Source of the DNA: Streptomyces mobaraensis
GTDB taxonomy: Bacteria > Actinomycetota > Actinomycetes > Streptomycetales > Streptomycetaceae
Direction: 5' to 3'
Length of the DNA: 64,000 bases
Assembly (NCBI RefSeq): GCF_020099395.1
Contig: NZ_CP083590.1
Span: forward strand, 868,001 to 932,000
The notes beneath the pieces are model-generated. The model made no database searches. It saw nothing but the letters and a program-made list of their open reading frames with translations, and was not told the DNA's origin. Shown here in pieces: positions 19,713 to 38,993 of the stretch (its first letter is position 1; each line of letters opens with the position of its first letter). The translations under genes and the position numbers were made by a program.

Positions 19713-21188
19713 TCACCCCGCCCGTTCCGGTGCCGCGTCCGTGCGGCGGGCCGTCGGTGAGCGGCGGTAGAGCGGGACGGCGACGAGGAGGCAGACGGCG
19801 AAGGCGGCGGCCAGGCAGCGGAAGGCGGCGTGGTAGCCGGCGAGGTCGGCCTGGGCGCGGGCGGCCGCGTCCGGGCCGGCGCGCCCGGCGAGGCGGGCGG
19901 CGGCGGTGGCCGTGGAGACGGTGGTGAGCAGGGCCACGCCGATCGAACCGCCCGCGTACTGCATGGTGTTGACGGTCGCCGAGGCCACCCCGGAGTCGTC
20001 CGGTGCCACCCCGAGGGTGGCCAGGCTGGTGGTGGCCGTGATGATCGTGCCGAGTCCGGCGCCGGCGAGGACGAGCGCCGGGAGGACGGCGGTCGGGTAC
20101 GGGCTGTCGAGGCCGAGGGAGCCCAGCAGAAGGAGGCCGGAGGCGGCCAGGGCCGCGCCGGCCGCGATCACCGTCCGGGGCCCGAGGCGCGGCAGGAGGA
20201 CGCGGGTGGCCAGCGGCGACGTCGCGATGAGCGCGGCGATCATCGGGAGGTAGGCGAGCCCGGTCGCGGCCGGGCCGTACCCCAAGGAGCGCTGGAGATA
20301 GTAGGTGCCGAAGAGGAAGACGCCGAAGACCGCCGAGCTGGTCTGGAGGAGGGCGATCAGGGAGGCGGCCCGGTCGCGGTCCAGGACGACGCGCGGCGGC
20401 AGCAGCGGGTGCCGCGCCCGGGTCTGCCACCCGGCGAAGGCCGTGAGCAGGACGCTGGCGGCGGCGAGGAACCCCCAGGTGGCGACGGCGGACCACGGGT
20501 GGCTCCCGGCCGCGGCGAAGCCGTAGACCAGGCAGAACAGGCCGGTTCCGACGAGCAGGGTGCCGGGGACGTCGAGCCGGGAGGCGCGGGGGTGCCGGTC
20601 CCGGGCGAGGAGCAGCGCCCCGGCGGCCAGCGCCAGGCCGGCGACGACGGTGTTGGCGTACATGGCCCAGCGCCAGCCCAGGTACTGCGTCAGGACGCCG
20701 CCGAGCGGCATGCCCACCGCGCCGCCCGCACCGGCCGCCGCGCCCCAGACGCCGAACGCCGTCGCGCGCTCCCCCGGCTCGGTGAAGGTGATGCCGACGA
20801 GCGAGAGGGCGGCGGGGGCCAGCAGGGCGCTGGAGAGGCCCTGCCCGGCGCGGGCCGCGACGAGGACGCCGAAGCCGCCGGCCACGCCGGCGAGGGCGGA
20901 GGTGCCGGCGAACCCGGCCAGGCCGGCGAGGAAGGCGGCCCGCCGCCCGAACAGGTCGGCGATCCGGCCGCCGAGCAGCAGGAAGCTGCCGAAGGCGAGC
21001 GCGTAGGCGGTGACGATCCACTGCCGGCCGCCGTCGGAGAAGCCGAGGTCGGCCTGGGCCGAGGGCAGCGCGATGTTCATGACGGTGCCGTCGAGCACCA
21101 CCAGCAGCTGGGCCGTGCTCAGGACGCCCAGGATCCACCAGCGGCGGTGCGGCGCGGGGGCGGTGCGGTGCGGGGGCAGGGGCGGCAT
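19713..21188 (-). CDS. MFS transporter, DHA2 (EmrB/QacA) type drug:H+ antiporter
   Basis: A 491-residue, 14-span exporter. Helix 1 has VVLDGTVMNIALPSAQADL, characteristic of the DHA2 family; the loop 2/3 signature is GGRIADLFGRRAAF; GGAVGMPLGGVL fits the antiporter motif C area. The ATG at 21188 follows GGGAGAG. It lies downstream of a 419-bp divergent spacer with the flavin reductase gene and upstream of the TetR-controlled operon, 87 bp away. Its substrate may be a secondary metabolite, but this is inferred from family and context. Confidence 0.88.
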   Translation of the reverse strand: MPPLPPHRTAPAPHRRWWILGVLSTAQLLVVLDGTVMNIALPSAQADLGFSDGGRQWIVTAYALAFGSFLLLGGRIADLFGRRAAFLAGLAGFAGTSALAGVAGGFGVLVAARAGQGLSSALLAPAALSLVGITFTEPGERATAFGVWGAAAGAGGAVGMPLGGVLTQYLGWRWAMYANTVVAGLALAAGALLLARDRHPRASRLDVPGTLLVGTGLFCLVYGFAAAGSHPWSAVATWGFLAAASVLLTAFAGWQTRARHPLLPPRVVLDRDRAASLIALLQTSSAVFGVFLFGTYYLQRSLGYGPAATGLAYLPMIAALIATSPLATRVLLPRLGPRTVIAAGAALAASGLLLLGSLGLDSPYPTAVLPALVLAGAGLGTIITATTSLATLGVAPDDSGVASATVNTMQYAGGSIGVALLTTVSTATAAARLAGRAGPDAAARAQADLAGYHAAFRCLAAAFAVCLLVAVPLYRRSPTARRTDAAPERAG

Positions 21189-21607: not shown

Positions 21608-22177
21608 ATGGAACACACGGCGGGTACCGGACTGGCGGAGCGGGATTTCCGGGCGGCGATGCGGCACCTGCCGACGGCCGTCGCGGTGCTGACGGTCCTC
21701 ACCCGGGCCGGGCCGGCCGGGATGACCGCCGGATCGGTCACCTCCGTTTCCATGGACCCCGAGCTGCTCTCCGTGTGCCTGCGCCGGGGCAGCCGGCTCT
21801 CCGGCGCGATCGCCGACTCGGGCGGGTTCGTCGTCAACCTGCTCCAGGAGCACCAGGCGCCGGTAGCCCGCTGGTTCGCCTCGTCCGAACGCTTCGGCGC
21901 GGGCGACGAGTTCCACGGGATCGGCTGGCACCCCGCGCCGAACGGGGGCCATCCGATCCTGGCGGACGCGGCCTGCGTGTTCGAGTGCCGTACGGAGGGC
22001 CAGGTGCCGAACGGCGACCACCTCCTCACGATCGGATGGGTGACCGCGTGCAAGGTGAAGCCGTCGGCGCGTCCGCTGCTCAGCTACCGGGGCCGGTTCC
22101 ACCGGATCGGCGGCGCTCCGGCCGAGGAGGTGCCGGCGCCGGGCGGGGCCGCGCGGACCGGGCCGTTCCGCACGTGA
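21608..22177 (+). CDS. Flavin reductase (HpaC/StyB-like)
   Basis: A 189-residue flavin-reductase-domain protein of the split-barrel FMN-binding fold. Typical features are RDFRAAMRHLPTAVAVLT near the N-terminus, GMTAGSVTSVSMDPELLSV (the FMN/FAD-binding strand), NLLQEHQ and WFASSERF, and a late GDHLLTIGWV. Such enzymes use NAD(P)H to supply reduced flavin to two-component monooxygenases. Two candidate partners lie 9-11 kb downstream: the StyA-like enzyme and the HpaB-like hydroxylase, neither of which has a reductase beside it. That partnership is inference. The Shine-Dalgarno region GGAGTGAGGA precedes the ATG. Confidence 0.88.
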   Translation: MEHTAGTGLAERDFRAAMRHLPTAVAVLTVLTRAGPAGMTAGSVTSVSMDPELLSVCLRRGSRLSGAIADSGGFVVNLLQEHQAPVARWFASSERFGAGDEFHGIGWHPAPNGGHPILADAACVFECRTEGQVPNGDHLLTIGWVTACKVKPSARPLLSYRGRFHRIGGAPAEEVPAPGGAARTGPFRT

Positions 22178-22199: not shown

Positions 22200-22409
22200 T
22201 GGAATGCCCTCACCGCCGCCGAACCGGCGTTCGCGGCGTCCGTGAAGGCGGCCTTCGACGCCGACCGCCCGGCCCTCCCGCCCGGCCCCGGCCCGGAGCC
22301 GCTGCGCCCCGGCATCGCCGAGGTGGCCACGGTGCGCGCCACCGAGCGGGGGGCCGTCGTACGGTCATGGCTCGCCGGGGGGACGCTGCGGGTGCGGCGC
22401 CGGGCGTGA
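22200..22409 (+). pseudogene. Pyridoxamine 5'-phosphate oxidase-like remnant
   Basis: The frame starting WNALTAAEPAFAASVKAAFD resembles the N-terminus of PPOX-fold proteins, and after a Pro-rich 20 residues it continues with AEVATVRATERGAVVRSW ... TLRVRRRA, resembling the C-terminus of the same family. The roughly 100-residue FMN-binding core is absent, and no start codon is available in frame. I read this as an internally deleted gene just behind the flavin reductase. Its tail overlaps the end of the convergent beta-helix gene. Resemblance is from memory of the family, not alignment. Confidence 0.45.
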
Positions 22410-24419
22410 GCCGTCGGCCGGCGGTCCCGGGCCGTCGGTCCTCGGTGCCGGGCGCGGACCGGCTGGGCGGATTCGGACGGCGACCGCGCCGGTCCATCCG
22501 CCGCCGGGCGCGGGGACGACGGGACGGCCGTCGACGGTGATTTCCAGTCTCATGCCGGGCGGTGCGGTCAGCCGGGCGGTGCGGTCCAGGCGGAGGGCCG
22601 ACAGATGGCAGGTGCCGGTGGGAGTCCACCGGCTGCCCGGGCCGAGGGTGAGGTCCACTCCGTTGTTGACCACCGGGGACGCCGTGTTGGTGACGACGCC
22701 CAGCTCCCGGAGGTGGGAGGCGTCGACGGCGGCGATCCGGTGCCGGGCGGTGGTGGCGGATACGACGCCCGTGAGGCGGGTACGGACGAGGGTGAGGCGC
22801 AGGCCGAGGCCGGGCAGCCGGCGGGTGCCGCCGCGCGTGCCGTTGAGGAAGTCCCCGGTCAGGTCGGTGTCGGTGAACTCGGCCGTGACCTCGGTGGGAT
22901 GGGGGGCCGTGGTGTCGGACCCGTCGGCGCGCACGGGTGGGCCGGGCGGGTCGCGGTAGACGCGGCCGACGATCTCCTGTGGCTCCGCGAGGCCGCGCGG
23001 GCCCGGGTCGTCGTCGTCCATGAGCTGCATCAGCACGCCGCCGGCCGACCGCAGGCGCGCGCCGCGGGAGCCGTCGACGGTGATCCGCGCGGGCTGCCCC
23101 TTGCCGAGGAGCACCGGGCCGACGGTGTCGAGCACGGTGCCGCCGTCGACGCGGAGGCGGCCGGGGCCGTGCCACATCACGCCGAAGCGGCGGGAGCGGA
23201 TGGTGGTGGCGCGCGGGGTGAGCGCGGCCGGTTCCGCCTCCGTCAGGCCCAGCCGCCAGTCAGCGGCGAGTCTCCGTACCGCTTCCCGGGTGCTGTCGCC
23301 GTAGTGCAGGGAACCGTCGCGGATGACGGCGGCGTAGTCGGCGACGTCGAGGTCGCAGCCCAGGAGGTGCTGGGTGACGCCGCCGCAGACGTAGGAGCCG
23401 TAGCCGCTGCGGGCCGTCGTCACCCGACTGTTGACCGCCGCGAGCCGGCTGCCGGCGCTGCCGCCCTCGGAGGACAGGACGCCCCAGCCCTCCGAGGTGA
23501 GGGTGGAGGCGAGGTAGGCGACGGTGGTGCCCCTGCCGCTGAGGTTGGTGGTACGGACGTTGCCGGTGATGCCGAGGAGCCAGGGCGCGGCCCTCATGTG
23601 GCGGGGGTCGACGGTGGGCCGGTAGCCGGCCGGCAGCGTGCCGTCGCGCGTGCGCAGCAGGGAGTTCCGGACGACGACCGTGGCGCCGCCGGTGGCGACC
23701 AGCGCGGCGCGCGTCACGCCGTGGCAGGTGATCCGGGCCCCGTCCACCACCAGGCGGGTCCCGGGGCCGGTGGCCGTGAGGGCGGCGCCGTAGCCGACGA
23801 AGTCGCAGCGGCCGTCGCCGGTGAGGTCGACGCGCGGGGCGCGCAGCAGGTACGAACCGCCGTCGACGTGGACGCCGTTGAAGACCGCGCCGGTGGAGAC
23901 GACGGTCAGGCCCTCGGCCGCCCACCGGCCGGCCCGGCCGCCGCGCCGCGCGGCGGGGACCGAACGGGCGGGGTCCGGGCCGTCGGCACCGACGTACAGG
24001 GCCTGCCGGAAGGGGAAGGTGAGGCCGTAGTGGCGGACGGTGTACCGCTCGGTCACGGTGACGGCCACGTCGCCGCGGTAGGTCCCCGGGGTGATCCGGA
24101 GCCGGCCGTCGGCTGTCGGCACGGTACCGGTCTCGACCCCGTCCACGGTGAGGGTCAGATCCTTGCCCTCGGGGGCGGTGAGGACGCCGTCGGGCTCGAC
24201 GGTGAGGCGGCGGAGGCGGGTGGTGCGGGCGAGGGTGACGGTATCGCCGGTGCGCACGGTGAGGGCGGTGAGGGCGGCCGGGGTTTCCGGGGGGTGGCCG
24301 GTCACGGTGGCCGAAGCACCGCGGAGGACGAAGGCCCCGCCCAGGGCGGCGCCGAGACCGAGGACGTGCCGCCGGGCGGGCCGGAGGGGCCCGGAGGGGG
24401 CGGGGGAATCCGGTGGCAT
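22365..24419 (-). CDS. Exported right-handed beta-helix-type protein, function unknown
   Basis: A 684-residue protein. Residues about 10-40 form a twin-arginine signal (RPARRHVLGLGAALGGAF), so export by Tat is expected. The rest alternates short strands with TG/DG turns: GDTVTLARTTRLRRLTV, VYLGC-type stretches such as VVVRNSLLRTRDG and TTVAYLASTLTSEG, as in parallel beta-helix proteins (pectate-lyase-like folds). No catalytic residues can be assigned. The ATG at 24419 follows GGGAGCACC; an upstream in-frame extension of 55 Arg/Ala-rich codons overlaps a tandem repeat and is unlikely coding. The C-terminus is Pro-rich. It is divergent from the biosynthetic operon and may be unrelated to it. 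Confidence 0.75.
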   Translation of the reverse strand: MPPDSPAPSGPLRPARRHVLGLGAALGGAFVLRGASATVTGHPPETPAALTALTVRTGDTVTLARTTRLRRLTVEPDGVLTAPEGKDLTLTVDGVETGTVPTADGRLRITPGTYRGDVAVTVTERYTVRHYGLTFPFRQALYVGADGPDPARSVPAARRGGRAGRWAAEGLTVVSTGAVFNGVHVDGGSYLLRAPRVDLTGDGRCDFVGYGAALTATGPGTRLVVDGARITCHGVTRAALVATGGATVVVRNSLLRTRDGTLPAGYRPTVDPRHMRAAPWLLGITGNVRTTNLSGRGTTVAYLASTLTSEGWGVLSSEGGSAGSRLAAVNSRVTTARSGYGSYVCGGVTQHLLGCDLDVADYAAVIRDGSLHYGDSTREAVRRLAADWRLGLTEAEPAALTPRATTIRSRRFGVMWHGPGRLRVDGGTVLDTVGPVLLGKGQPARITVDGSRGARLRSAGGVLMQLMDDDDPGPRGLAEPQEIVGRVYRDPPGPPVRADGSDTTAPHPTEVTAEFTDTDLTGDFLNGTRGGTRRLPGLGLRLTLVRTRLTGVVSATTARHRIAAVDASHLRELGVVTNTASPVVNNGVDLTLGPGSRWTPTGTCHLSALRLDRTARLTAPPGMRLEITVDGRPVVPAPGGGWTGAVAVRIRPAGPRPAPRTDGPGPPADGSRPAPHPQRPPGEP

Positions 24420-24760
24420 CTGCGGTGCTCCCTCACGTCGTTCGGCGACACGGGCCGCGGGGCGGTGCGCGCGGCGGCCGGTGCGCGCGGCGGCCGGTAC
24501 GGGCGACGACCGGTACGCGCGGCGGCCGGTGGCCTGGTCGGCCGATGCGCGATCGGCGGTTCGTCCCATGAATTCCGACGTCATTTATCCCAGGGCGACG
24601 CGGTATTCCGGTCGAATGACGCCGCAATTCAGGCGGGAATCCGTCATCGTATTGGCCTACGGATGCCACGTTCGGGTTCTCCTTCCTCCCGGCCCCTCAC
24701 CCGCGGCGGTGAAATCCGCCTACCATCCGGAGGGAAACCAGGATCGAGGGGGTCTCCGTA
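24420..24760. other. 341-bp divergent spacer upstream of biosynthetic operon
   Basis: Holds the 16-bp tandem array (24465-24528) on its left side and a distinctly lower-GC stretch at 24565-24665 on its right side, where promoters for the lyase operon are most likely. No gene seen. GAGGGGG about eight bases before ATG 24761 serves as ribosome binding site. Confidence 0.45.
24465..24528. repeat. Four-copy 16-bp tandem repeat
   Basis: Units at 24465, 24481, 24497 and 24513. The first two are identical (GTGCGCGCGGCGGCCG), the third differs at several bases, the fourth at one. Sixteen bases is about one and a half helical turns, so it is not simply in phase. It sits upstream of the beta-helix gene start. 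Confidence 0.8.
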
Positions 24761-26452
24761 ATGCCGTTGACGCCTACGCAGAATCCGCCGCGGGCCGGAA
24801 CGACCGGCGCGGCCCTGGTATTGGGATCCGACGCACTGCGCTCCGACGACGTCGCGGACTTCGCGCGGCGCCCCGAGGGGCGGGAGATCCGGCTCGACCC
24901 GGCCGCCGGGGCGCGGATGGCCGCCGCCCAGCGGGTCAAGGACAAGCTCGTCGCCTCCGGGCAGCCCGTGTACGGGGTGACCACCGGCTTCGGCGACAGC
25001 TGCGGGCGGCACATCGGGCCGGCGAAGGCCGCCGCCCTCCAACGCAACCTCATCTCCGGCCACTTGGCGGGGAGCGGCGACCCGGCACCGGCCGACGTGA
25101 CCCGGGCGACCATGCTGATCCGGGCCAACTGCCTGGCCCGCGGCTACTCCGGGGTGCGGGTCGCGCTGGTGGAGCTGCTGGCGGACTGTCTGCGCGAGGA
25201 CATCCTGCCGCTGATCCCGGAGCGGGGGTCGGTGGGCGCGAGCGGTGACCTCGTCCCGCTGGCGTACCTGGCCGACATGCTGACCGGCAACGGCCGGGTG
25301 CTGCACCGGGGCGAGCCCCGGTCCGCCGCCGCGGCGCTGCGCCGGGCCGGGCTCACCCCGGTGGAGCTGGCGCCGAAGGAGGGGCTGGCGCTGATCAACG
25401 GCACGTCGTTCATGAGCGGTTACGCGGTCGCGGCCGTCCGCGCGGCGCGCGAGCTGGCCGTCGTCGCGGACCTGTGCACGGCGTTGACGGCGGAGGCCGT
25501 CCAGGCCAGCAGCGGCCCGTTCGAACCGTTCCTGCACACGCACAAGCCGCATCCGGGCCAGCGGGCCAGCGCGGCGCGGATCCGCCGTCTGCTGGCGGGC
25601 TCCAAGCTGACCGTCGAGCACCAGGAGCGGGTCGGCGCCAACCCCCGGCTCGACGGCGCCGGTTACCAGATGTTGCGCACCGGACTACAGGACCGCTACT
25701 CCGTGCGCTGTGCGCCGCATGTGACCGGAGTGCTCAACGACACGCTGGACTGGGTCACCGACTGGCTCGACACCGAGATCAACTCCACCAACGACAACCC
25801 GCTGTTCGACCCGGTGGCCGGGGAGGTCCACCACGGCGGCAACTTCTACGGCGGCCACGTCGGGCAGGCGATGGACGCCCTCAAGCTCGCCGTGGCGAGC
25901 GTCGGTGACCTGCTGGACCGGCAGGTGGCGCTGGTCGTCGACGAGAAGAGCAACCAGGGACTGACCGCGAACCTGGTCCGCCCGACGGACGACACGGACG
26001 CCGACGCCGGCATCCACCACGGCTTCAAGGCCGCGCAGATCGCCTGCTCCTCCCTGGCCGCCGAGGCGTTGAAGAACACCGCGCCGGCGACGGCGTTCTC
26101 CCGCTCGACCGAGTCCCACAACCAGGACAAGGTGAGCATGGCCTCCATCGCCGCCCGCGACGCCCGGCGGGCCGTCGAACTGGTCGAGAACATCGCCGCG
26201 ATCGCCCTGGCCGCGCTGTGCCAGGCGGTGGACCTGCGGGGCCACGACCGGATGGCCCCCGCCACGCGGGCCGCCCGCGACCTGGTACGGACGGTGGTCC
26301 CGTTCGTCGACCGGGACCGGCGGCTCGACGTCGACCTGGCCGGTCTCGTCGGCCTGATCCGGTCCGGGCGGCTCACCGCGCCGCTCGCGGCACCCGACGC
26401 CGAGGCGGCCGACGGGCTGCCCGCACAGCAGGGGAGGTCCCATGTCCGGTGA
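24761..26452 (+). CDS. MIO-dependent aromatic amino acid ammonia-lyase/aminomutase
   Basis: A 563-residue member of the HAL/PAL/TAL/aminomutase superfamily. The prosthetic MIO group forms from Ala160-Ser161-Gly162 in GSVGASGDLVPL. The catalytic Tyr is in VYGVTTGFG, and the inner-loop LINGTS, YSVRCAPHVTG, ELN-type EINSTNDNPLF and NQDKVSM motifs are present. At the position that sets substrate choice (LQRNLISGHLAG) the pair reads Gly100-His101, closer to the Ser-His pair of histidine lyases than to His-Leu (tyrosine) or Phe-Leu (phenylalanine). Context, however, argues for an aromatic product: it heads an operon with ACP, ketosynthase, ligase and hydroxylases rather than hut genes. It overlaps the ACP gene by 11 bp. 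Lyase versus 2,3-aminomutase cannot be separated by eye. Confidence 0.9.
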   Translation: MPLTPTQNPPRAGTTGAALVLGSDALRSDDVADFARRPEGREIRLDPAAGARMAAAQRVKDKLVASGQPVYGVTTGFGDSCGRHIGPAKAAALQRNLISGHLAGSGDPAPADVTRATMLIRANCLARGYSGVRVALVELLADCLREDILPLIPERGSVGASGDLVPLAYLADMLTGNGRVLHRGEPRSAAAALRRAGLTPVELAPKEGLALINGTSFMSGYAVAAVRAARELAVVADLCTALTAEAVQASSGPFEPFLHTHKPHPGQRASAARIRRLLAGSKLTVEHQERVGANPRLDGAGYQMLRTGLQDRYSVRCAPHVTGVLNDTLDWVTDWLDTEINSTNDNPLFDPVAGEVHHGGNFYGGHVGQAMDALKLAVASVGDLLDRQVALVVDEKSNQGLTANLVRPTDDTDADAGIHHGFKAAQIACSSLAAEALKNTAPATAFSRSTESHNQDKVSMASIAARDARRAVELVENIAAIALAALCQAVDLRGHDRMAPATRAARDLVRTVVPFVDRDRRLDVDLAGLVGLIRSGRLTAPLAAPDAEAADGLPAQQGRSHVR

Positions 26453-26813
26453 ACCGCACGCCGCGAAACCGCGCGCCGACGCACCGCGCGTCAGTGAACC
26501 GCGCGCCGCCGAGTCCGTCGTCCGCGCGACCGTCGGGGCGGTCCTCGGCACGTCGGCGGCCGAGTGGCCCCGCGACCGCCCGCTGGACGAACTGCCGGAC
26601 GCGATCTACGACAGCCTGGCCCAACTGGAAGTCCTCACACGGGTGGAGCGGGCCCTCGGACTCCCGCCCCGGCCCGTCGAACCGGACCGGCTGCGGACCA
26701 TCCGCGCCATCGTGGCCCTCGTCACGGAGCCCGCCGACGGGCCCGCCGGGAACCCCGCGGCCGCGCGCGCCCCGGCGGAGGCGCGGCGGGCGGCCGGGGG
26801 CGGTGCCGCGTGA
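26442..26813 (+). CDS. Acyl carrier protein
   Basis: A 123-residue carrier protein. The phosphopantetheine attachment site is Ser58 in DAIYDSLAQLEVLTRVE, with the surrounding helices ESVVRATVGAVLG and RTIRAIVALV. Both ends carry low-complexity Ala/Pro/Arg tails, making it longer than the usual 80-90 residues. It overlaps the lyase upstream by 11 bp and the ketosynthase downstream by 4 bp, so it is co-translated with both. It would hold the starter or growing chain for the fused ketosynthase; the ligase two genes on is the likely loading enzyme. Confidence 0.88.
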   Translation: MSGEPHAAKPRADAPRVSEPRAAESVVRATVGAVLGTSAAEWPRDRPLDELPDAIYDSLAQLEVLTRVERALGLPPRPVEPDRLRTIRAIVALVTEPADGPAGNPAAARAPAEARRAAGGGAA

Positions 26814-29269
26814 GCCCCGCCCGACGGCCCGCCGCGCCGCCGCGCGTCGCCGTCACCGGGGTGTACCTGGCCACCGGGCTGGGCGTCGGGACGGAGGAGG
26901 TCTGGCGGGCCGTGTGCGCCGGCGACTCGGCCCTCGGGCGGTGCTCGGACCTGGCGGACGTGGTGGCGGCACGGCTCCCGGCGGCGTCGTGGCCGGGGGC
27001 CAAGGGGGTGGCAGGCGCCCCGGGCGCGGCAAGCGCTGAGAGCACCCGCGCCGTCACGCCGCCCGGGGACGCCGAGAGCCCCGAGACCACAGGCCGTACC
27101 GAGCCTTCCGCCCCCACCGAACCCCCCGACGCCGCCTTCCTCATCCGCCAGGCCGGCCGCGGCGCCCTGCGGCACGCCGCGCTCGCCCCCGACTCCCTCG
27201 ACCCGTACGAGATCGGCCTCGCCCTCGGGACCAACGCCGGCTCCGAGGAGCTCTGGAAGCGCTACCGGGCGGCCACCGGCCCCGCCCCGCACCCGGCGCA
27301 CACCGTGGCCGACGAGCTCGGGGCGGCCGTCGGCGCCCGGGGGCCGAAGGCGGTCTTCGCCACCGGGTGTGTCGCCGGTGCCAACGCCGTCGGGTACGCG
27401 TACGACGCCGTCGCCGCCGGGCGGGCCACGGTGATGCTGGTGGGCGGGTACGAGGCGCTGAACGTCACCACCGTCGCCACGTTCGCCAGCTGGAAGTCGA
27501 TCGACTCCGCACCCTGCGCGCCCTACGCCCGCAGCGGCGGGCTGAGCCTCGGGGAGGCGGTGGCGTTCCTGGTGCTGGAGTCGGAGGGTTCGGCGCGGGC
27601 GCGCGGGGTGCCGGTCCTCGCCTGGCTGCGCGGCTACGGGCTGACCAGCGACGCCCACCACATCACCGCGCCGCCGCCGGACGGCGCCGGCCTGCGGAAC
27701 GCGATGCTCGGCGCGCTGGGCCGGGCGGGTCTCGGCCCGGACGCGGTCGGCTACGTCAACGGTCACGGCACCGGGACGCCGGCCAACGACACGGCCGAAC
27801 TCAGCGCCATGCGGGCGGTGTTCACCGGTCCGCACCCGCCGCCGATGAGCAGTTCCAAGCCGCAGGTCGGGCACACGCTGGGGGCCTGTGGCGCCGTCGA
27901 GGCGGTGCTGACGGCGCTGGCGCTGCGGGACGGGCTCCTCCCGCCGACCGCCAACGCGGACGCGACACCGGTCTGGGACGTCGTCCCGCGCACCGCCCGG
28001 CGGGCCGGCGTCCGGGTCGCCCTGTCCAACTCGATCGCGTTCGGCGGCGCCTGCTGCTCGCTGGTCCTGTCCCGGGACGGTGGCGAAGGACCTCAGCCGT
28101 CCGCCACGGAGCTCGTGTTCACCGGCGCCGGGGTGGTCTCCCCACTGGGGCTCGGGCGGCGCGCGTTCCTCACCGCCCTGCGTGGCCCCGCCCCGGCCGG
28201 CCCGCCCCGCGTACCGGAGGACCTGGCCGGCCACCTCGCCCCGGGCCACCGGTCGCGGGTCGACGCCCTGGGCGCGCTGACGGTGGCCGCCGCGCGCATG
28301 GCCTGGGACGAGGCGGGGCTGCGGGACGGCGCGCGGGTCGGCGTCGTCGTGGCGACCGCCGCCGGCCCGATCGGGACCGTGGAACTGCTCAACGAGACCG
28401 TCCGCCGAGAGGGCCCGGAGTACGTCAGCGCCGTGCACGCGCCGAACATCGTCACCAGCGTGACGGCCGGCTACGCCACCCTGGAACTGGGCCTGGGCGG
28501 CCCGCTCTCGGCCGTCTCCACCGGTGACGCCTCGGGGCTGGTCGCCCTGGGCCACGCGGCCGACCTGATCCGCGCGGGCCAGGCCGACGCCGTCGTCGTC
28601 GTGGCGGCCGACGAGGTCACCGGCACGCTCGCCCGGGCGTTCGGCGCCTACGGGCTGCGCGGCCCCGGCCCGTCCCGGCCGTACGCGCGGACGCCGGCCC
28701 CCGGCCCGGTCGCGCCGGCGGCGGCGGCCGTGGTGCTGGAGGCGGCCGGCCACGCCCGGGCCCGGGGCGCGGACGCGCTCGGCGCGCTGCTCGGGCACGC
28801 GGTGACCTCGGGTCCCGGGCGGGCGTCCGGCGCGCCGCTGTGCGCCGAGACCTGGTCCCGGGCGCTGGACCTCGCCCTGCGCGGCCTCGGCCCGCACCGG
28901 GCCCGCACGGGCGGCACGGAGGACGTGGACGTCTACGGGTGCGCCCACGGCGTACCGGCCCTGGACGAGGCCGAACTGGCCGCCGTCGCCTCCTGCCTCA
29001 AGCCGGCCGGCACCCGGCTGACCGCCCTCGCGGGGGCGGTCGGGCACTGTCAGGCGGCCGGCCCGCTGCTGTCCCTCGTCGCCGCGCTCGACGGCTGCGG
29101 CGGCGGCCGGCTGCCGTACGCGACGGAGCCGCCCGATCCGCTGCCCGGCGCCCGCGCCTTCCTCTCGGACGAGCGGGCGGCCGGGCCGCGCCGCGCCCTG
29201 GTGACCGCCGCCTCCTGGGGTGGCACGTACGCGGCCGCGGTGGTGGGCCCGGCCGGTGGGGAGCGGTGA
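26810..29269 (+). CDS. Fused ketosynthase plus chain-length-factor-like protein
   Basis: An 819-residue protein with two thiolase-fold ketosynthase domains in one chain. The first (about 10-425) is intact: Cys187 in ATGCVAGAN, His319 in GHGTGTPAND, Lys350 and His355 in KPQVGHTLGACG. The second (about 435-810) lacks the triad: Asp573 stands where Cys would be (STGDASG), YGCAHG replaces HGTGT, though AGAVGHCQAAG persists. This is the KS-alpha/KS-beta division of type II systems, normally two genes, here joined. CLFs usually have Gln at the Cys position, so Asp is odd. Residues 50-110 hold an extra Thr/Pro/Glu-rich insertion. Start GTG overlaps the ACP stop (GTGA). It presumably elongates an aryl or acyl starter by one or more malonyl units. 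Confidence 0.88.
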   Translation: MSPARRPAAPPRVAVTGVYLATGLGVGTEEVWRAVCAGDSALGRCSDLADVVAARLPAASWPGAKGVAGAPGAASAESTRAVTPPGDAESPETTGRTEPSAPTEPPDAAFLIRQAGRGALRHAALAPDSLDPYEIGLALGTNAGSEELWKRYRAATGPAPHPAHTVADELGAAVGARGPKAVFATGCVAGANAVGYAYDAVAAGRATVMLVGGYEALNVTTVATFASWKSIDSAPCAPYARSGGLSLGEAVAFLVLESEGSARARGVPVLAWLRGYGLTSDAHHITAPPPDGAGLRNAMLGALGRAGLGPDAVGYVNGHGTGTPANDTAELSAMRAVFTGPHPPPMSSSKPQVGHTLGACGAVEAVLTALALRDGLLPPTANADATPVWDVVPRTARRAGVRVALSNSIAFGGACCSLVLSRDGGEGPQPSATELVFTGAGVVSPLGLGRRAFLTALRGPAPAGPPRVPEDLAGHLAPGHRSRVDALGALTVAAARMAWDEAGLRDGARVGVVVATAAGPIGTVELLNETVRREGPEYVSAVHAPNIVTSVTAGYATLELGLGGPLSAVSTGDASGLVALGHAADLIRAGQADAVVVVAADEVTGTLARAFGAYGLRGPGPSRPYARTPAPGPVAPAAAAVVLEAAGHARARGADALGALLGHAVTSGPGRASGAPLCAETWSRALDLALRGLGPHRARTGGTEDVDVYGCAHGVPALDEAELAAVASCLKPAGTRLTALAGAVGHCQAAGPLLSLVAALDGCGGGRLPYATEPPDPLPGARAFLSDERAAGPRRALVTAASWGGTYAAAVVGPAGGER

Positions 29270-30393
29270 TGGAGGGGTATCTGGAGCCGTCGCCGCGCGA
29301 GTTCCTCGCCGAGGTGCTGGCCGCGCCGGACCGGCCGCCGGGACCGTCGGTCGTCCGCTGGGACGGGCTGGGGGCGGGGGCGGCCGCGCGGCTGGTGGCG
29401 GAGGTGGTGCCGGACCTCGTCGAGGTGTGCACCTCCGGCAGCACGGGTCCCGCCGTCCGCTGGCGGCACAGCAGATGGCAGCTGTGGACGGAGGCGCGCC
29501 TGCTGGCCGGGCTGGTCCGCGCCGACCGCCCCCGGGCGGTGCTGTCCTTCGCTCCCCCGGCCCACCTCTACGGCCTGGTCGCCACCGTGCTGCTGCCCGC
29601 CGCGCTCGGCGTCCCCCTCTGCTACTGGCCCCGGTACGGGCTGCCGGTGCCCGCCCTCGACGCGGGCCGGTGGCTGGTGGCCGCCATCCCGTGGGCGTTC
29701 CCCGTCCTGCTCCGTGACCCGTCGGTGCTGGGCCGGCGCGAGCACGTCACCGTCCTGCACAGCACCGCGACGCTGCCGGCGACGGCCGGGGAGTTCGCCG
29801 CGGCGACCGGCCCCGGGCGGATGCGGCTGATCGAGGTGTTCGGGTCGACGGAGACCGGCGCCATCGCCCACCGGCAGCGGACCGGGCCGGCGCTCCGGTC
29901 CCCGGCGGCGGGGGCGCCGGAGCCCTGGACGCTGCTGGACGACGTCCGCTTCGCCCCCGGGCCCGCCGGCCGGCTCACCGTCGCCGGCCCCCGGCTCGCC
30001 CTCGGCCCGGACGGCCGGCCGCTGCCCCGGTGGACCACCGACGACCACGTCCGGCGGCTGGACGGCCGCACCTTCCGGTTCCACGGCCGCCGCTCCCGGC
30101 TGATCAAGGTCAACGGCCGCCGGATCGACCTCGATGTGCTGGAGGAGCGGCTGCGCGCCGCCCTGGCCTGCGCCGACCTCGCCTGTGTGCCCGTCGCCGA
30201 CCCGCTCCGCGGCGAGCACGTCGAACTGCTCGTCGCCGCCCCCGGCGAGCCGTGCCTGGTCCCCCGGCGGACGACCGAGGTGCTGCGCGAACTCGGCGTC
30301 ACCGTCGGGCGGATCACCATCGTGGACCGCATCGACCGCGGCGCCACCGGCAAGCTCCGGGGCCCCGCCGCCCGGCGGGTGGTGGGCCCATGA
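29269..30393 (+). CDS. Adenylate-forming ligase (acyl-CoA/acyl-ACP synthetase-like)
   Basis: A 374-residue ANL-superfamily enzyme, well short of the usual 500-550. Motifs: VCTSGSTGPAVRW (ATP phosphate loop, lacking the usual Lys after Pro), FGSTETGAIAHRQ (adenine-binding region), TTDDHVRRLDG (ribose-binding Asp) and GRRSRLIKVNGRRID (hinge and C-terminal domain). It begins at the A of the preceding TGA (TGATG) and overlaps the next start by four bases. The short N-terminal part resembles the compact ligases of aryl-polyene clusters. Likely role is to activate the aromatic acid from the lyase and load it on the ACP; CoA as acceptor is an alternative. Confidence 0.85.
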   Translation: MEGYLEPSPREFLAEVLAAPDRPPGPSVVRWDGLGAGAAARLVAEVVPDLVEVCTSGSTGPAVRWRHSRWQLWTEARLLAGLVRADRPRAVLSFAPPAHLYGLVATVLLPAALGVPLCYWPRYGLPVPALDAGRWLVAAIPWAFPVLLRDPSVLGRREHVTVLHSTATLPATAGEFAAATGPGRMRLIEVFGSTETGAIAHRQRTGPALRSPAAGAPEPWTLLDDVRFAPGPAGRLTVAGPRLALGPDGRPLPRWTTDDHVRRLDGRTFRFHGRRSRLIKVNGRRIDLDVLEERLRAALACADLACVPVADPLRGEHVELLVAAPGEPCLVPRRTTEVLRELGVTVGRITIVDRIDRGATGKLRGPAARRVVGP

Positions 30394-31682
30394 GGATCGC
30401 CATCGCCGGGGACGGCGTCGCCGGCCTCCACCTCGCCCTGCGGCTGCTCCAACTCGGCGTCGACGCCACCCTGTTCGGGGCGCGGGCGCCGGAGGACGTG
30501 CGGCGCGGCCGGGCGCTGAACTTCGTGGCCCGCTCGGGGAGCACCCGCCGCCGCGAGGCCCTGCTGGGCGTCGACTTCTGGACCGCGCCGGACACCCTGG
30601 CCCAGACCCGGACGGTCACCGTCCACGGCCCGGAGCCGCTGTCCTTCCGCGCCGATCCCCATCCCGCGTACAGCATGGTCGACTTCCGGCTCTACCTGCC
30701 CGCGCTGGTCGAGGAGTACGTGGCGCGGGGCGGCCGGCACGTCGTCACCGAGCTCACCGCGCGGACCGTCCGCGGCCTCGCCGACGGGTACGACCTGGTC
30801 GTCGTCGCGGGCGGCCGGGCGGCCGGCGAGCTGTTCCCCCGGGACCCCCGGCGCTCCCCGTTCGACGCCCCACAGCGGGTGCTGTGCGGCGGGCTGTACC
30901 GGGGCATCGCGGAGGCGGTCCCCCGGAGCATCGAGTTCCACGCCGTGCCGCGGGTGGGCGAGGTGCTGCGGATGCCGTTCGTCTGCGCGGACGGCCGCGT
31001 CGACGTCCTCGGCCTGGAGGCCGTCCCGGGCGGCCCGCTGGAAAGCGTCTGCCGCACCCCGTACGCCCAGGACCCGGACCGCTTCCACACCGTCGTGCTC
31101 GACGCGCTCCGCCGCCATGTGCCCGGGCTGCGCGAGCGGATCGACGAGCGGGAGTTCCGGCTGAACGGGCCGGGCGACCTCGTCCAGGGCGGGGTGGTGC
31201 CGGTGGTGCGCCGGGCGTGGCGGCCGCTGGCCGGCGGCACGTGGGCGTTCGCGCTGGGGGACGCGTGGTGCGTCAACGACCCCATCACCGCGCAGGGCGC
31301 CAACCTGGCCTCGTACTGCGCCCTGGAGTTCGCCGAGGAGGTGGCCGCCGGGCCGCCGTTCGACGAGGCGTTCTGCCGGGCCGCGGAGGAGCGGATGCGG
31401 CCGTACGCGGAGAGCGTGGCGCAGTGGACCGCCGCGTTCGTGCGGCCGCCCACCCCGCAGTTGCTGGAGCTGTTCCGGGCGGCGGCCGCGGATCCGGCGG
31501 TGGCCACGGCCTTCGCCGCCAACTTCGACGATCCGCCGGCCATGTGGCACAGCATCGCCACCCCCGAGCGGACCGCCGCCTTCCTCGCCGGTGTCCGCGG
31601 GCGGTCCGCGGCGCCGGCTTCCGGAGCACCCAGCGAACGGAGGACGTCGCCATGGGCCGGCTTGACGACAAGACCGTCCTGA
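30390..31682 (+). CDS. StyA-like (styrene/indole monooxygenase type) FAD-dependent monooxygenase
   Basis: A 430-residue group E flavin monooxygenase-like protein. The FAD motif IAGDGVAGLHLALRL is at residue 4. Several StyA-type segments follow: VDFRLYLPALVEEY, LCGGLYRGI, DLVQGGVVPVVR, DPITAQGANLASYCA and the late NFDDPPAMWHSIATPERT. Enzymes of this type have no NAD(P)H site and take reduced FAD from a separate reductase; the flavin reductase at 21608-22177 is the only visible candidate. They epoxidise styrenes or oxidise indoles and sulfides. In this operon the substrate could be an alkenyl aromatic such as a cinnamoyl- or styryl-type intermediate (inference). It is coupled upstream by ATGA and overlaps the SDR gene by 31 bp. 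Confidence 0.85.
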   Translation: MRIAIAGDGVAGLHLALRLLQLGVDATLFGARAPEDVRRGRALNFVARSGSTRRREALLGVDFWTAPDTLAQTRTVTVHGPEPLSFRADPHPAYSMVDFRLYLPALVEEYVARGGRHVVTELTARTVRGLADGYDLVVVAGGRAAGELFPRDPRRSPFDAPQRVLCGGLYRGIAEAVPRSIEFHAVPRVGEVLRMPFVCADGRVDVLGLEAVPGGPLESVCRTPYAQDPDRFHTVVLDALRRHVPGLRERIDEREFRLNGPGDLVQGGVVPVVRRAWRPLAGGTWAFALGDAWCVNDPITAQGANLASYCALEFAEEVAAGPPFDEAFCRAAEERMRPYAESVAQWTAAFVRPPTPQLLELFRAAAADPAVATAFAANFDDPPAMWHSIATPERTAAFLAGVRGRSAAPASGAPSERRTSPWAGLTTRPS

Positions 31683-32422
31683 TCAGCGGGACCAGTTCGG
31701 GGATTGGCCGGGCGACGGCCGTGGAGTTCGCCCGGGAGGGCGCCCGCGTCGTCGGGTGCGGGCGCGATCCCCGGACGGCGGAGGAGACGGTCCGGCTGGT
31801 GAGGGAGGCGGGCGGGGAGATGGTGTCGCTCGCTCCGGTCGACCTGGCGACGCGGGAGGGCGCCGAGGCGTGGATCGGCTTCGCCGTGGACGCGTTCGGC
31901 CCGTTCGACGTCCTGTGCAACAACGCGTCGTCGCTGCGGAACGCGCCGTTCGACCGGCTCGGCCCGGACGACTGGGAGCACACTCTCCGCAACGAGCTCG
32001 ACCTCGTCTACCTGTGCACCCGGGCCGCGTGGCCGCATCTGGTCGCGCGGGGCGGCGGGGTCGTCCTCAACATCGCGTCCATCTCCGGCTCGCGCGGCGC
32101 CCTCTTCGTCCAGCAGGCGGCGCACGGCGCGGCGAAGGGGGGCGTGCTCGCGCTGACGCGGCATCTGTGCGGCGCGGGCGCGGCGCACGGGATCCGGGTC
32201 AACTCCATCAGCCCCGGGCTGATCCGGACCCGTGCGACGGCCCCGCACATCGACGACCCGGGCGGCGGGGTGCCCGGCCTGCTGCGGCGGATCCCGGCCG
32301 GGCGGGTGGGCCGGCCCGAGGAGGTGGCCGCGCTCGCGGCGTTCCTCGCGTCGGACGCGGCGGCGTACGTCAACGGCGCGGACGTCGTCGTGGACGGGGG
32401 CGTCAGCGCGATGGCGGGCTGA
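31652..32422 (+). CDS. SDR family oxidoreductase with altered catalytic site
   Basis: A 256-residue classical-length short-chain dehydrogenase/reductase. The cofactor motif is ISGTSSGIGRA and the NNAS motif is present. The catalytic Ser145 and Lys162 are in place, but the Tyr of YxxxK is His158 (HGAAK). The late segment SISPGLIRT and the C-terminal YVNGADVVVDGG are normal. In FabG-like enzymes the Tyr is the acid/base, so activity may be reduced, changed or absent. The ATG at 31652 follows GGAGGACGT and lies inside the end of the StyA-like gene. In context a beta-ketoacyl reductase or an alcohol/epoxide-converting enzyme would fit. Confidence 0.88.
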   Translation: MGRLDDKTVLISGTSSGIGRATAVEFAREGARVVGCGRDPRTAEETVRLVREAGGEMVSLAPVDLATREGAEAWIGFAVDAFGPFDVLCNNASSLRNAPFDRLGPDDWEHTLRNELDLVYLCTRAAWPHLVARGGGVVLNIASISGSRGALFVQQAAHGAAKGGVLALTRHLCGAGAAHGIRVNSISPGLIRTRATAPHIDDPGGGVPGLLRRIPAGRVGRPEEVAALAAFLASDAAAYVNGADVVVDGGVSAMAG

Positions 32423-32546
32423 CGCCGGGCGCGGCCGGGGCCGCGCGCCCCCGGCACGGAACGAGGGAAACCGGGGACGCGGAGGGGGCACGGGAACGCG
32501 GGAACGACGACAACGACCGGCAGTCAACCGCCAGGAGGCACCGCCC

Positions 32547-34103
32547 ATGCCCGACCAGCACGTCAGTTCCCCGGCCCCCGCCCCGCCACGCCCCGACGGC
32601 GGCCGCGCCGTCGAACGGCCGCCCACCGGCGCCGAGTACCTGGAGAGCCTGCGGGACGGCCGCGAGGTGTGGATCTACGGCGAGCGCGTCGCGGACGTCA
32701 CCGCCCACCCGGCGTTCCGCAACAGCGCCCGGACGCTGGCCCGGCTCTACGACGCCCTCCACGACCCGGCGCTGCGCGGGGTGCTCACCGTGGACAGCGA
32801 CGCGGGCGGGACGGTCACCCACCCGTTCTTCCGGGCGCCGCGCGGGACGGCGGACCTGCGGGCCGCGCGGGACGCCATCGCGGTGTGGCAGCGGATGACG
32901 TACGGCTGGATGGGCCGGACGCCGGACTACAAGGCGTCGTTCATGGCGACGCTGGGCGCCGACCCGGGTTTCTACGGCCCGTTCGCGGCCAACGCCTCGG
33001 CCTGGTACGCGCGGGCGCAGAACCGGGTGCTGTTCCTGAGCCACGCCCTCGTCGACCCCCCGGTGAGCCGCCACGCGGAGAAGGGGGCGGGCGCGGGGCT
33101 CCGCGTCCGGGTGGTGGCGGAGACGGCCGACGGGATCGTGGTGAGCGGGGCGAAGGGGATCGCCACGGGGGCGGCCCTGACGCAGTACGCGTTCGTGAGC
33201 CACACCGGTCCGCGGCCGGACGACCCGGCGCAGGCGGTGTCGTTCGTCGCGCCGCTGCACACCCCGGGGCTCAAGGTCGTCTGCCGGGCGGGGTACGAGC
33301 TCCGGGACGGCCGGTCGGACAGCCCGTTCGACCATCCGCTGTCCAGCCGGTTCGACGAGAACGACGCCCTGCTGCTCTTCGACCGCGCGGTGGTGCCCTG
33401 GTCGGACGTGCTGATCCACCGTGACGTCGAGCGGGCCGGGGCGTTCGCCCACGGGAGCGGGTTCCTGCCGCGGTTCCTGTTCCACAGCGCCGTCCGGATG
33501 TCGGTGAAGCTGGACTTCCTGTGCGGGCTGCTGCTGAAGGCCGTCCGCAGCAACGGCAGCGACGTCCACCCGGGGGTGCGGTCGGGCGTCGGCGAGGCGC
33601 TGGCGTGGCGGCACACCGTGCACGCGCTGGTGACGGCCATGACCGAGCGGTCCGAGCCGTGGGCGCGGGGCCGCGTGCACCCTCCGCTGGCGCCCTGCCT
33701 CGCCTACCGGGTGCTGGCCCCGACCGCGTACCGGACGGTCCGGCAGCTCATCCAGCGGCTGGTCGCCGGCCCCCTCATCAGTACCGTGTCCCACCCGGCC
33801 GATTTCCGCGCCCCGGGTCTCCGGCCGCTCCTGGACGTCTACTTGCGGGGCGCGGACGGGGGCGGCGCCGAGGAGCGCGCCAAGCTGATGAAGCTGGTGT
33901 GGGACGGCGTGGGCAGCGAGTTCGCGAGCCGGCACGAGCTCTACGAGAGCCTGCACGCGGCCAACCCGGAGGTGACCCGCTTCGAGACGTACCAGTTCGC
34001 GGAGCGCACCGGGCTCCGGGACGAGCTGTGCGGCTTCGTGGACCGGTGCCTGTCCGAGTACGACGCCGAGGGCTGGACGGTGCCGTATCTGAGGGACGAG
34101 TGA
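32547..34103 (+). CDS. hpaB: HpaB-type FADH2-dependent aromatic hydroxylase
   Basis: A 518-residue 4-hydroxyphenylacetate 3-monooxygenase-family oxygenase. Diagnostic segments from the N-terminus: EYLESLRDGREVWIYGERV, HPAFRNSA, YGWMGRTPDYKASF, GFYGPFAANASAWYARAQ, GAKGIATGAALTQYAF, PLSSRFDENDALL, GSEFASRHELYE and CLSEYDAEGWTVPYL. The family ortho-hydroxylates phenols to catechols, on free acids or on carrier-bound beta-tyrosine in enediyne pathways, using FADH2 from a reductase. There are 124 bp between it and the SDR gene, with a good AGGAGG site. It closes the biosynthetic operon; a hairpin follows its stop codon by five bases. A tyrosine-derived substrate is implied. Confidence 0.93.
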   Translation: MPDQHVSSPAPAPPRPDGGRAVERPPTGAEYLESLRDGREVWIYGERVADVTAHPAFRNSARTLARLYDALHDPALRGVLTVDSDAGGTVTHPFFRAPRGTADLRAARDAIAVWQRMTYGWMGRTPDYKASFMATLGADPGFYGPFAANASAWYARAQNRVLFLSHALVDPPVSRHAEKGAGAGLRVRVVAETADGIVVSGAKGIATGAALTQYAFVSHTGPRPDDPAQAVSFVAPLHTPGLKVVCRAGYELRDGRSDSPFDHPLSSRFDENDALLLFDRAVVPWSDVLIHRDVERAGAFAHGSGFLPRFLFHSAVRMSVKLDFLCGLLLKAVRSNGSDVHPGVRSGVGEALAWRHTVHALVTAMTERSEPWARGRVHPPLAPCLAYRVLAPTAYRTVRQLIQRLVAGPLISTVSHPADFRAPGLRPLLDVYLRGADGGGAEERAKLMKLVWDGVGSEFASRHELYESLHAANPEVTRFETYQFAERTGLRDELCGFVDRCLSEYDAEGWTVPYLRDE

Positions 34104-34107
34104 GGGG

Positions 34108-34164
34108 CACGGACGGCGACCGCCCTCAAAGCACCCCCGTGGCTTTGAGCGGTCGCCGTCCGTG
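34108..34164. terminator. Strong hairpin ending biosynthetic operon
   Basis: About 24 paired bases with one bulged C: left arm begins CACGGACGGCGACCGC and continues CTCAAAGC, right arm begins GCTTTGAG and ends GGTCGCCGTCCGTG; the loop is about eight bases. No T-run follows. It starts five bases after the HpaB stop. Confidence 0.85.
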
Positions 34165-34391
34165 TCATCGCGGACGTTAGTCATCCGGATCCGGCCATGG
34201 CAACTTGCTGCCCCAAGTCGCAATGTATTGCACCCAAAGTCGGTCCATATCCGTCTTCCCTCCGTCTCCACTCTCGACAAATCCGGCAATCATCCACAGA
34301 ACGCGGCTTTGTCTCCGGGGTACTTCCATGGCCGGGCCGTTCCCCGGCCGGTTAGAGTCCTCGGGTCGGAGCGTGCGCGAGAGGGTGGACG

Positions 34392-34847
34392 ATGCAGCAG
34401 GGGGGAGCGCCCGCGGAGGGCGGGGAACACCCGTCCCTGGAGGCGCGGATCACCGCGGCCAAGGCGGACGTCGCCCGGCGCCTGCGGTACGTGCGCCAGC
34501 ACCATCCCGACGGCCCGTTCACCCTCGCCGGGCTGGCGGAACGCGCCGGGGTCTCCAAACGGACGCTCTCCCAGGCCGAGTCGGCGGACGGCTCCAACCT
34601 CACCCTGGAGACCCTGCTCAAGGTCAGCGACAGCCTGGGCATCCCACGGCCCGCCTACTTCCTCGACGAGCAGGTCTTCCGGCAGGTCAACAGCGAACTC
34701 GCGGGCGGCGGGCCCGGGTCGGAGGCCCCGCCGGCGCGGGTGGACCAGCTGTCCCGCATGCTGAACGACATCCTCGACACCGCCGCCCGGGCCCGGTGCG
34801 CCTTACGGGACCTGCCCGCCGGGGAGAACGCCGGCGGGGGCGCCTGA
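34392..34847 (+). CDS. XRE/Cro-type helix-turn-helix regulator with TTA codon
   Basis: A 151-residue DNA-binding protein. Residues about 20-85 form the HTH: RRLRYVRQHHPDG, FTLAGLAERAGVSKRTLSQAE and NLTLETLLKVSDSLGIP, the XRE pattern with recognition helix around GVSKRTLSQ. The C-terminal part is Gly/Ala-rich with a weak helix. Codon 138 (34803-34805) is TTA, the rare leucine codon read by the bldA tRNA in Streptomyces, so translation is probably developmentally controlled. Upstream, the near-palindrome GCAAT-GT-ATTGC at 34220-34231 could be its own site. It follows the biosynthetic operon's terminator and converges on a phosphatase gene; a role in regulating the operon is possible but unproven. 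Confidence 0.85.
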   Translation: MQQGGAPAEGGEHPSLEARITAAKADVARRLRYVRQHHPDGPFTLAGLAERAGVSKRTLSQAESADGSNLTLETLLKVSDSLGIPRPAYFLDEQVFRQVNSELAGGGPGSEAPPARVDQLSRMLNDILDTAARARCALRDLPAGENAGGGA

Positions 34848-36939: not shown

Positions 36940-37108
36940 GCGAGGTCCTCCTTGCGCCCGCGCGCGGTGGGGGCGGCCTCGGGGTGCCGGTGGGCGTCGC
37001 GCCCGGCCCGGTCCCGCCGCTCGCGCCGCCGTCCGCCGCGCCGCGCTCTCCATCGTCCCTCGGATCCCGCGCGGCGCGCAGCCGGGCGCTCGCGGCGGGG
37101 CGGCGGGG

Positions 37109-38632: not shown

Positions 38633-38993
38633 GGTGCTCCAATCGGTTGCCTTCGGGCGGCGCGGGCGGCCCGAGGGGACGAGGGGAACCGGACCGGAAG
38701 AAGACGGGTCAGGAGCGTCGACAAGGCATGCCCATGACAATCTTCACGGCCCGCTGGGACGAGGAGCGTTCGAATGATAGGGAGCCCCACGGGGGTTGGC
38801 TAGGTCTCCCGCCGGAGGCGCTCCGCCCCGCACTCCGTGACCATTTCGGAATTCAATGTTCCGCCCCCGCCTCCGCCCCGCTCCCCCATCATCCCGCGCC
38901 CGCAAAACATTTGCCGCCCCAAACACACGTACGACATAATGACGGCCTTTCACCACCGTTCATTTCTCTTACCCGGGTGAGGGCCACTGCCCG
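38633..38993. other. 361-bp divergent spacer
   Basis: No gene seen. The right half is lower in GC and carries the candidate promoter for the M48 gene at 38911-38940; the left half serves the DUF4360 gene. Confidence 0.4.
38911..38940 (+). promoter_or_regulatory. Candidate sigma-70-type promoter for M48 peptidase gene
   Basis: TTGCCG (-35) and CATAAT (-10) are 18 bp apart in an AT-richer patch, placing a transcription start about 45 bp before the ATG at 38994. Sequence match only. Confidence 0.45.

Follow-up and report, generated by a model that had tools for sequence, protein, structure and literature searches.

A conserved Streptomyces operon for a putative aryl-primed type II polyketide pathway with a predicted styryl epoxidase

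Results

A compact seven-gene operon in Streptomyces mobaraensis

The window analysed here, a 64,000-nucleotide stretch of the 7.67-Mb genome of Streptomyces mobaraensis (G000:C1:868001-932000), contains a compact operon of seven genes on the + strand at positions 24761-34103. The operon is real and conserved, and is best read as a variant of an aryl-primed type II polyketide synthase (PKS). On balance, we consider it probable that the genes constitute a small pathway in which a type II PKS is primed by a phenylpropenoic acid and the styryl double bond is epoxidised. The seven genes are:

24761..26452, +, aromatic amino acid lyase of the 4-methylideneimidazol-5-one (MIO) type, 563 aa (PF00221, 550 bits; NF041222, 674 bits)
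26442..26813, +, free-standing acyl carrier protein (ACP), 123 aa, Ser58 in a DSL motif (PF00550, 19.0 bits)
26810..29269, +, ketosynthase-chain length factor (KS-CLF) fusion, 819 aa, GTG start (PF00109/PF02801)
29269..30393, +, compact AMP-forming acyl ligase, 374 aa (PF00501, 37 bits)
30390..31682, +, StyA-like FAD monooxygenase, 430 aa (PF17885, Smoa_sbd, 91 bits)
31652..32422, +, short-chain dehydrogenase/reductase (SDR), 256 aa (PF13561, adh_short_C2, 180 bits)
32547..34103, +, HpaB-type FADH2-dependent phenol 3-hydroxylase, 518 aa (PF11794/PF03241, HpaB_N/HpaB, 285/167 bits)

Pfam and NCBIfam profile scans placed each of the seven products, all encoded by open frames, in the family that an initial annotation made from the DNA letters had given it. 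That annotation also described five overlapping genes followed by two more. The close packing is borne out, but the count is not: the first six genes overlap successively by 11, 4, 1, 4 and 31 bp, and only hpaB follows, after a gap of 124 bp. Four features described below are absent from that annotation: the flavin reductase gene at 21608-22177, the Gly of the lyase, the Asp of the CLF half and the His of the SDR.

Conservation of the operon

A DNA search with the operon against 392 genomes of the genus, at E values up to 1e-50 that over-diverged copies would escape, retrieved the whole operon from three genomes, its own included (G000, G075 and G327; the latter two loci are L064 and L065, the last in two pieces). 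Some piece of the operon was matched in 94 of the 392, with certain genomes matching the SDR only. L064 is the nearest copy (96% over the operon). A search of genome contigs identified a further locus, L001, that also carries the complete operon; eight other loci from that search match by KS, SDR or transporter of the major facilitator superfamily (MFS) only. The gene order is identical in the window, L001, L064 and L065, and the arrangement is thus not a matter of chance.

In protein searches, the KS-CLF had a close match among 61 genomes in its own genome only, the next best being 45% identical over residues 103-815 (G001). The StyA-like protein was matched at 1e-60 in six of 200 genomes of the family, and the best match outside its own genome was 49% identical. 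Among the matches listed for the KS-CLF, eight close relatives (P0002-P0009, 67-87% identical) come from S. mobaraensis, S. albireticuli (two), S. griseocarneus, two further Streptomyces, one Kitasatospora and one other source.

The lyase resembles bacterial tyrosine ammonia-lyases

The lyase carries the MIO triad Ala160-Ser161-Gly162 and its score with PF00221 lies far over the cut-off of 27.3 bits, which places it in the superfamily. The only other PF00221 match in the genome is HutH (687 bits, cut-off 539), so the operon lyase is not the housekeeping histidase. Its best NCBIfam model was NF041222, the BagA/FevW tyrosine ammonia-lyase (674.4 bits; cut-off 1000), followed by two histidase models (448 and 445 bits; the lower score belongs to TIGR01225, cut-off 539.15), the tyrosine 2,3-aminomutase model TIGR03832 (381 bits; cut-off 501) and the phenylalanine ammonia-lyase model (368 bits, also below its cut-off). 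The best match in the PDB was a tyrosine aminomutase (297 bits). Though it falls below every curated cut-off, the protein is probably a tyrosine or 3,4-dihydroxyphenylalanine (DOPA) ammonia-lyase. The NF041222 model is named BagA/FevW, yet in the gene table of PMC6692506 the tyrosine ammonia-lyase is FevV, and FevW is bagremycin synthetase.

At position 100 of the lyase, the 120 best homologues carry Tyr (107), Phe (5) or Gly (8), and the eight Gly100 lyases are the closest proteins (P0121-P0128). The residue that follows is His in 116 of the 120. The window protein has Gly100-His101, a pair that presumably lies where ammonia-lyases select the side chain, and the small residue could make room for a larger ring, for instance that of DOPA.

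The KS-CLF retains a complete KS active site

The KS half of the fusion is intact, as in a minimal type II PKS: Cys187, His319, Lys350 and His355 are all present and invariant in a 46-row alignment. In the second half, Asp573 stands in the place of the Cys and His746 is retained, and this half is hence a CLF without an active Cys. Across 120 listed proteins, the window's included, that place in the second half is occupied by Cys in 43 proteins, by His in 24, by Gly in 13 and by Asp in nine; the nine with Asp are P0001-P0009, P0001 being the window's own protein. Twelve of the 120 fall short of 700 aa. An AlphaFold2 model built from 46 sequences shows two thiolase-type halves (mean pLDDT 87.3, pTM 0.92).

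The KS-CLF is 33-45% identical to the aligned proteins outside its clade. In a tree of 87 KS halves, the window clade joins P0043 together with P0065 and P0067-P0069, in which the CLF is cut short, but long branches meet at this point and the join may be false. P0065, P0067, P0068 and P0069 are KS proteins, 519-526 aa long, that retain no more than the first part of the CLF. Streptomyces NBC_00178, the source of P0067, also has a lyase (P0167) that is 61-62% identical.

The ACP and ligase may form a loading cassette with the lyase

The ACP scores under the PF00550 cut-off of 20.8 bits, and the phosphopantetheine-carrying Ser58 is kept in all eight ACPs aligned, the window's included. For the ligase, the best NCBIfam match was TIGR02372, 4-coumarate-CoA ligase (54.7 bits; cut-off 334.7). 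Equally compact ligases, each with an adjoining ACP gene, were found near lyases 56% identical to that of the window in three of 16 lyase loci (L090, L093 and L094), which supports a lyase-ligase-ACP loading cassette. The compact ligase probably loads an aryl acid on the ACP. In an NCBIfam scan of L077, L090 and L094, the lyases of L090 and L094 also scored best with the BagA/FevW model.

Directly beside the lyase in L093 and L094 lies a gene for a small allene-oxide-cyclase-like/dirigent-like barrel protein (L093:10786-11343 and L094:9034-9543), with the ACP and compact ligase genes nearby. L093 also holds a Trp-halogenase-like gene and a gene with adenylation, peptidyl carrier and thioesterase domains. 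The loci with the barrel protein possibly belong to a different phenylpropanoid pathway.

The SDR carries His in place of the catalytic Tyr

The SDR has the fold family of its class and an intact GTSSGIG cofactor motif. His158 replaces the catalytic Tyr of the YxxxK motif and Lys162 is kept, and in this respect the protein departs from classical SDRs such as FabG. Among 14 aligned SDRs, eight carry this His: the four operon copies and four from another locus type (L068, L069, L080 and L081; 61-63% identity), and the substitution is therefore a stable feature of the lineage. The remaining six, a non-random set taken from the KS or StyA loci at hand, all have Tyr. In L068, a VOC (glyoxalase-type) gene lies 3' of the SDR gene, and a fumarylacetoacetate (FAA) hydrolase gene about 6 kb away.

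Two oxygenases and a linked flavin reductase

The StyA-like protein scores well above the PF17885 cut-off of 25 bits and reaches 350.6 bits with the StyA model NF045732 (cut-off 550). In the PDB it matched 9j0h (376 bits), for which our literature search found no paper, and styrene monooxygenase A (3ihm, 239 bits). The enzyme is predicted to epoxidise a styryl double bond. The genome holds two further PF17885 matches. Loci L066 and L067 have two closely spaced StyA-like genes as well as an SDR gene.

HpaB exceeds the cut-offs of both of its Pfam models and scores 539 bits with TIGR02310 (HpaB-2; cut-off 885). It matches PDB entries 6b1b (508 bits) and 4oo2 (490 bits), the latter of which we take to be SgcC, about equally, so both free and carrier-bound substrates are possible. 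A region of another genome of the genus (L076:9378-16478) encodes a distant MIO lyase, a KS and an HpaB with 62% identity to that of the window; the same region contains a carrier-protein match overlapping the frame of a male-sterility-type reductase, and a WS/DGAT match.

Upstream of the operon lies a candidate partner for these oxygenases:

21608..22177, +, flavin reductase, 189 aa (PF01613, 131 bits)

Its gene adjoins all four copies of the operon (window, L001, L064 and L065) in the same place, with 79-98% identity between the proteins. It scores below the cut-offs of the HsaB, FerA, HpaC and StyB models (StyB, 79.7 bits; cut-off 200). The reductase is predicted to feed both the StyA-like and HpaB monooxygenases. 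For C-1027, a single flavin reductase has likewise been proposed to serve two oxygenases (PMC6165268).

Other features of the locus

19713..21188, -, MFS transporter, possible exporter (PF07690, 161 bits)
22365..24584, -, 739-aa protein with no Pfam or NCBIfam match at 1e-3
34106..34166 (about), +, long hairpin 3' of hpaB, possible end of transcription
34392..34847, +, helix-turn-helix (XRE-type) regulator, possible cluster regulator (PF01381, 30 bits)

A strong hairpin had been noted at the end of the gene set, and folding confirmed it (-59.2 kcal/mol, z -5.1). It has no T-run and is absent from the output of a terminator scan. A similar hairpin lies 3' of hpaB in L001 and L064; none was present in the stretch folded for L065.

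At corresponding positions in L001, L064 and L065 lie counterparts of the MFS transporter (78-97%; truncated in L064 by the locus end) and of the 739-aa protein (60-90% identity); the latter shows lower identity than the operon proteins in every comparison. The XRE-type regulator is present in L001 and L064 and had no tblastn match in L065 at 1e-5; there the gene 3' of hpaB is a different one, whose HTH_3 score of 17.5 bits lies under the cut-off of 23. Elsewhere, the window contains two PAS/GAF-SpoIIE phosphatase genes (12201-14867 and 34870-37053) and a DUF4360 gene (37982-38740).

Discussion

A proposed pathway

The genes, the intact KS residues, the conservation of the operon and its linkage to the reductase are direct observations. 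We infer every substrate, the order of steps, the number of extensions and the product in the following scheme. The MIO lyase would deaminate L-tyrosine to p-coumarate (or L-DOPA to caffeate), and HpaB would introduce a 3-hydroxyl group to give a catechol, acting on the free acid, the ACP-bound acid or tyrosine itself. The compact ligase would adenylate the acid and transfer it to the ACP. The KS half would then condense it with malonyl-ACP, most likely once, to a 3-oxo-5-arylpent-4-enoyl-ACP, with malonyl transfer carried out by a host enzyme. The SDR may act on the keto group or on a later carbonyl. Epoxidation of the styryl bond would fall to the StyA-like enzyme, and both oxygenases would draw on the flavin reductase at 21608. 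The product, perhaps a small catechol lactone, a diol or an acid, could be released by host enzymes or through spontaneous cyclisation; on chemical grounds, ring closure of a 3-hydroxy-4,5-epoxide should yield a hydroxylated lactone.

Of the two routes offered by the initial annotation, the best fit is loading of a cinnamate-type acid on the ACP with hydroxylation, extension and epoxidation. The lyase scores far higher with the BagA-type model than with the histidine ammonia-lyase, tyrosine aminomutase and phenylalanine ammonia-lyase models. The KS retains its Cys-His-Lys-His set while the Cys of the CLF is replaced, and the flavin reductase is linked to the operon in four loci. Several observations weigh against this assignment. 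The lyase, ligase, StyA-like protein, HpaB and flavin reductase all miss the curated NCBIfam cut-offs. P0125 (Kitasatospora sp. NPDC051984, 77% identical), one of the eight closest lyases, has Ala-Gly-Gly instead of the MIO Ala-Ser-Gly, and 16 loci around lyases 53-60% identical to the window's contain no StyA-like or HpaB match at 1e-4. Near the ligase C-terminus, a TGK-motif Lys that we take to be catalytic is present in six of the seven aligned ligases; L001 has Glu there. The operon contains no malonyltransferase, dehydratase or thioesterase gene, and ketoreduction may be absent given an SDR that lacks the catalytic Tyr.

Alternative explanations

That last feature of the SDR, together with an operon devoid of dehydratase, thioesterase or cyclase genes in the ORF and family scans, favours an unlikely alternative: two or more extensions without reduction would give a styrylpyrone (hispidin-like) or another polyketone, and the SDR would have some other job. 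The GxxxGIG motif and the Lys are, however, kept in all four operon SDRs aligned, which makes an NAD(P)-dependent activity probable, and among the papers listed by a literature search for a bacterial type II styrylpyrone, no title or abstract opening pointed to such a system. Somewhat more doubtful is a pathway in which the KS-CLF works with host FabG and FabZ to build a longer polyene, a pigment like the aryl polyenes that is epoxidised at its aryl end. More distant fused KS-CLFs do occur in larger gene sets (Priestia NZ_CP120620 and L070, the latter with two SDRs, GCV_T, ACPS and a thioesterase), but of dedicated reducing genes such as those in the Priestia set the operon has only the His-SDR, and its KS-CLF shares only the modest identity given above with aligned proteins outside its own clade. 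Aryl polyene clusters typically have a dedicated dehydratase. The initial annotation had taken the lack of such a gene as an argument against a standard aryl polyene; the scan of 19 window proteins indeed shows none, but a dehydratase of the host could take its place. For cma, the dehydratase has been proposed to come from fatty acid synthase (PMC10777205), so the missing gene says little. The lack of a dehydratase or thioesterase gene leaves the choice of product undecided.

The other route of the initial annotation is disfavoured. In it, the MIO enzyme would be an aminomutase, the ligase and ACP would carry beta-tyrosine, and HpaB would hydroxylate it as in the chemistry of the enediyne enzyme SgcC. 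We regard this as very improbable, even though a tyrosine aminomutase is the best PDB match of the lyase and the presumed SgcC structure nearly equals 6b1b as a match for HpaB. With the BagA/FevW model the lyase reaches 674 bits versus 381 with TIGR03832 (below the respective cut-offs of 1000 and 501), the top NCBIfam model for the ligase is 4-coumarate-CoA ligase, and a StyA-family epoxidase requires a double bond, which beta-tyrosine does not have.

Returning to the phenylpropenoate-primed pathway, a more specific form of it is a dedicated caffeoyl (DOPA-derived) line, in which the Gly100 lyase would accept DOPA, the Ser-His-Lys SDR would represent a distinct reductase class and the StyA-like enzyme would epoxidise the chain made by the single-chain KS-CLF. 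We put this forward tentatively and think it improbable as a whole. If true, its products would be bacterial catechol relatives of plant styryl-lactone epoxides, and a DOPA-accepting ammonia-lyase would offer a direct route to caffeate. The operon bears on phenylpropenoate priming of type II PKSs, on the role of an SDR with His for Tyr, and on whether StyA-type enzymes epoxidise styryl chains, free or carrier-bound, in a biosynthetic rather than a degradative setting. With seven genes and one reductase, the system is small enough for rebuilding in a laboratory host.

Comparison with known systems

We recognised no published description of this gene set among the titles and abstract openings listed, a survey that left subscription journals mostly outside its scope and is no proof of absence. 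The earlier statement that the set matches no named product thus holds for the literature searched, but the logic has close published relatives. A single-chain KS-CLF is not new. PfaC has a KS-CLF didomain on one chain and works in polyunsaturated fatty acid synthesis (PMC12895367). The Priestia megaterium plasmid NZ_CP120620 also encodes the fusion on one chain, about 29% identical to the window's, in a set that differs in including malonyl-CoA:ACP transacylase, FabG and FabZ (L010:6377-14007, with ACP, phosphopantetheinyl transferase, thioesterase and GcvT-like protein as well). A GcvT-like gene is also found 5' of the fused KS-CLF in L070. With StyA/StyB, the StyA-like protein and flavin reductase share the domain family and the two-component FAD logic; here, however, the StyA score is below its cut-off, and the reductase gene lies 2.6 kb upstream of the operon, its product having a low StyB score.

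The early steps have counterparts in other pathways. In saccharomicin biosynthesis, a tyrosine ammonia-lyase and a 4-coumarate 3-hydroxylase (sam8/sam5) produce caffeic acid, with no polyketide extension of it in the description drawn on here (PMC3469384). BagA/FevV of the bagremycin and ferroverdin pathways correspond to the nearest named lyase model, but there p-coumarate is decarboxylated to p-vinylphenol (PMC6692506). Loading of an aryl acid on an ACP by an AMP ligase, followed by a KS and CLF, is found in the cma/ava systems for p-coumaric and avenalumic acid (PMC10777205). Those systems differ in their 3-amino-4-hydroxybenzoate starter, two ACPs and diazotisation enzymes, and their gene table lists no MIO lyase, HpaB or StyA.

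In gene content, the operon also resembles the turnagainolide genes tur1-tur6 of Bacillus subtilis, for which a ligase, a histidine ammonia-lyase (HAL), FabG, an ACP and two KSs have been proposed to make a 3-hydroxy-5-phenylpent-4-enoyl unit, a cinnamoyl diketide, by the same opening steps as in the scheme above (PMC12094020). A knock-out of tur7, which encodes a non-ribosomal peptide synthetase (NRPS), tied the cluster to its product; the diketide steps are the authors' proposal. The same source cites siderochelin as a case of a type II PKS that makes a diketide. The tur cluster has separate KS genes, a FabG reductase and NRPS genes following, and its gene table lists no HpaB, StyA or flavin reductase. 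Compared with Table 2 of PMC12094020, the operon likewise encodes an AMP ligase, an MIO lyase, a reductase, an ACP and a KS pair together, with the His-SDR as the reductase and the KS pair on one chain.

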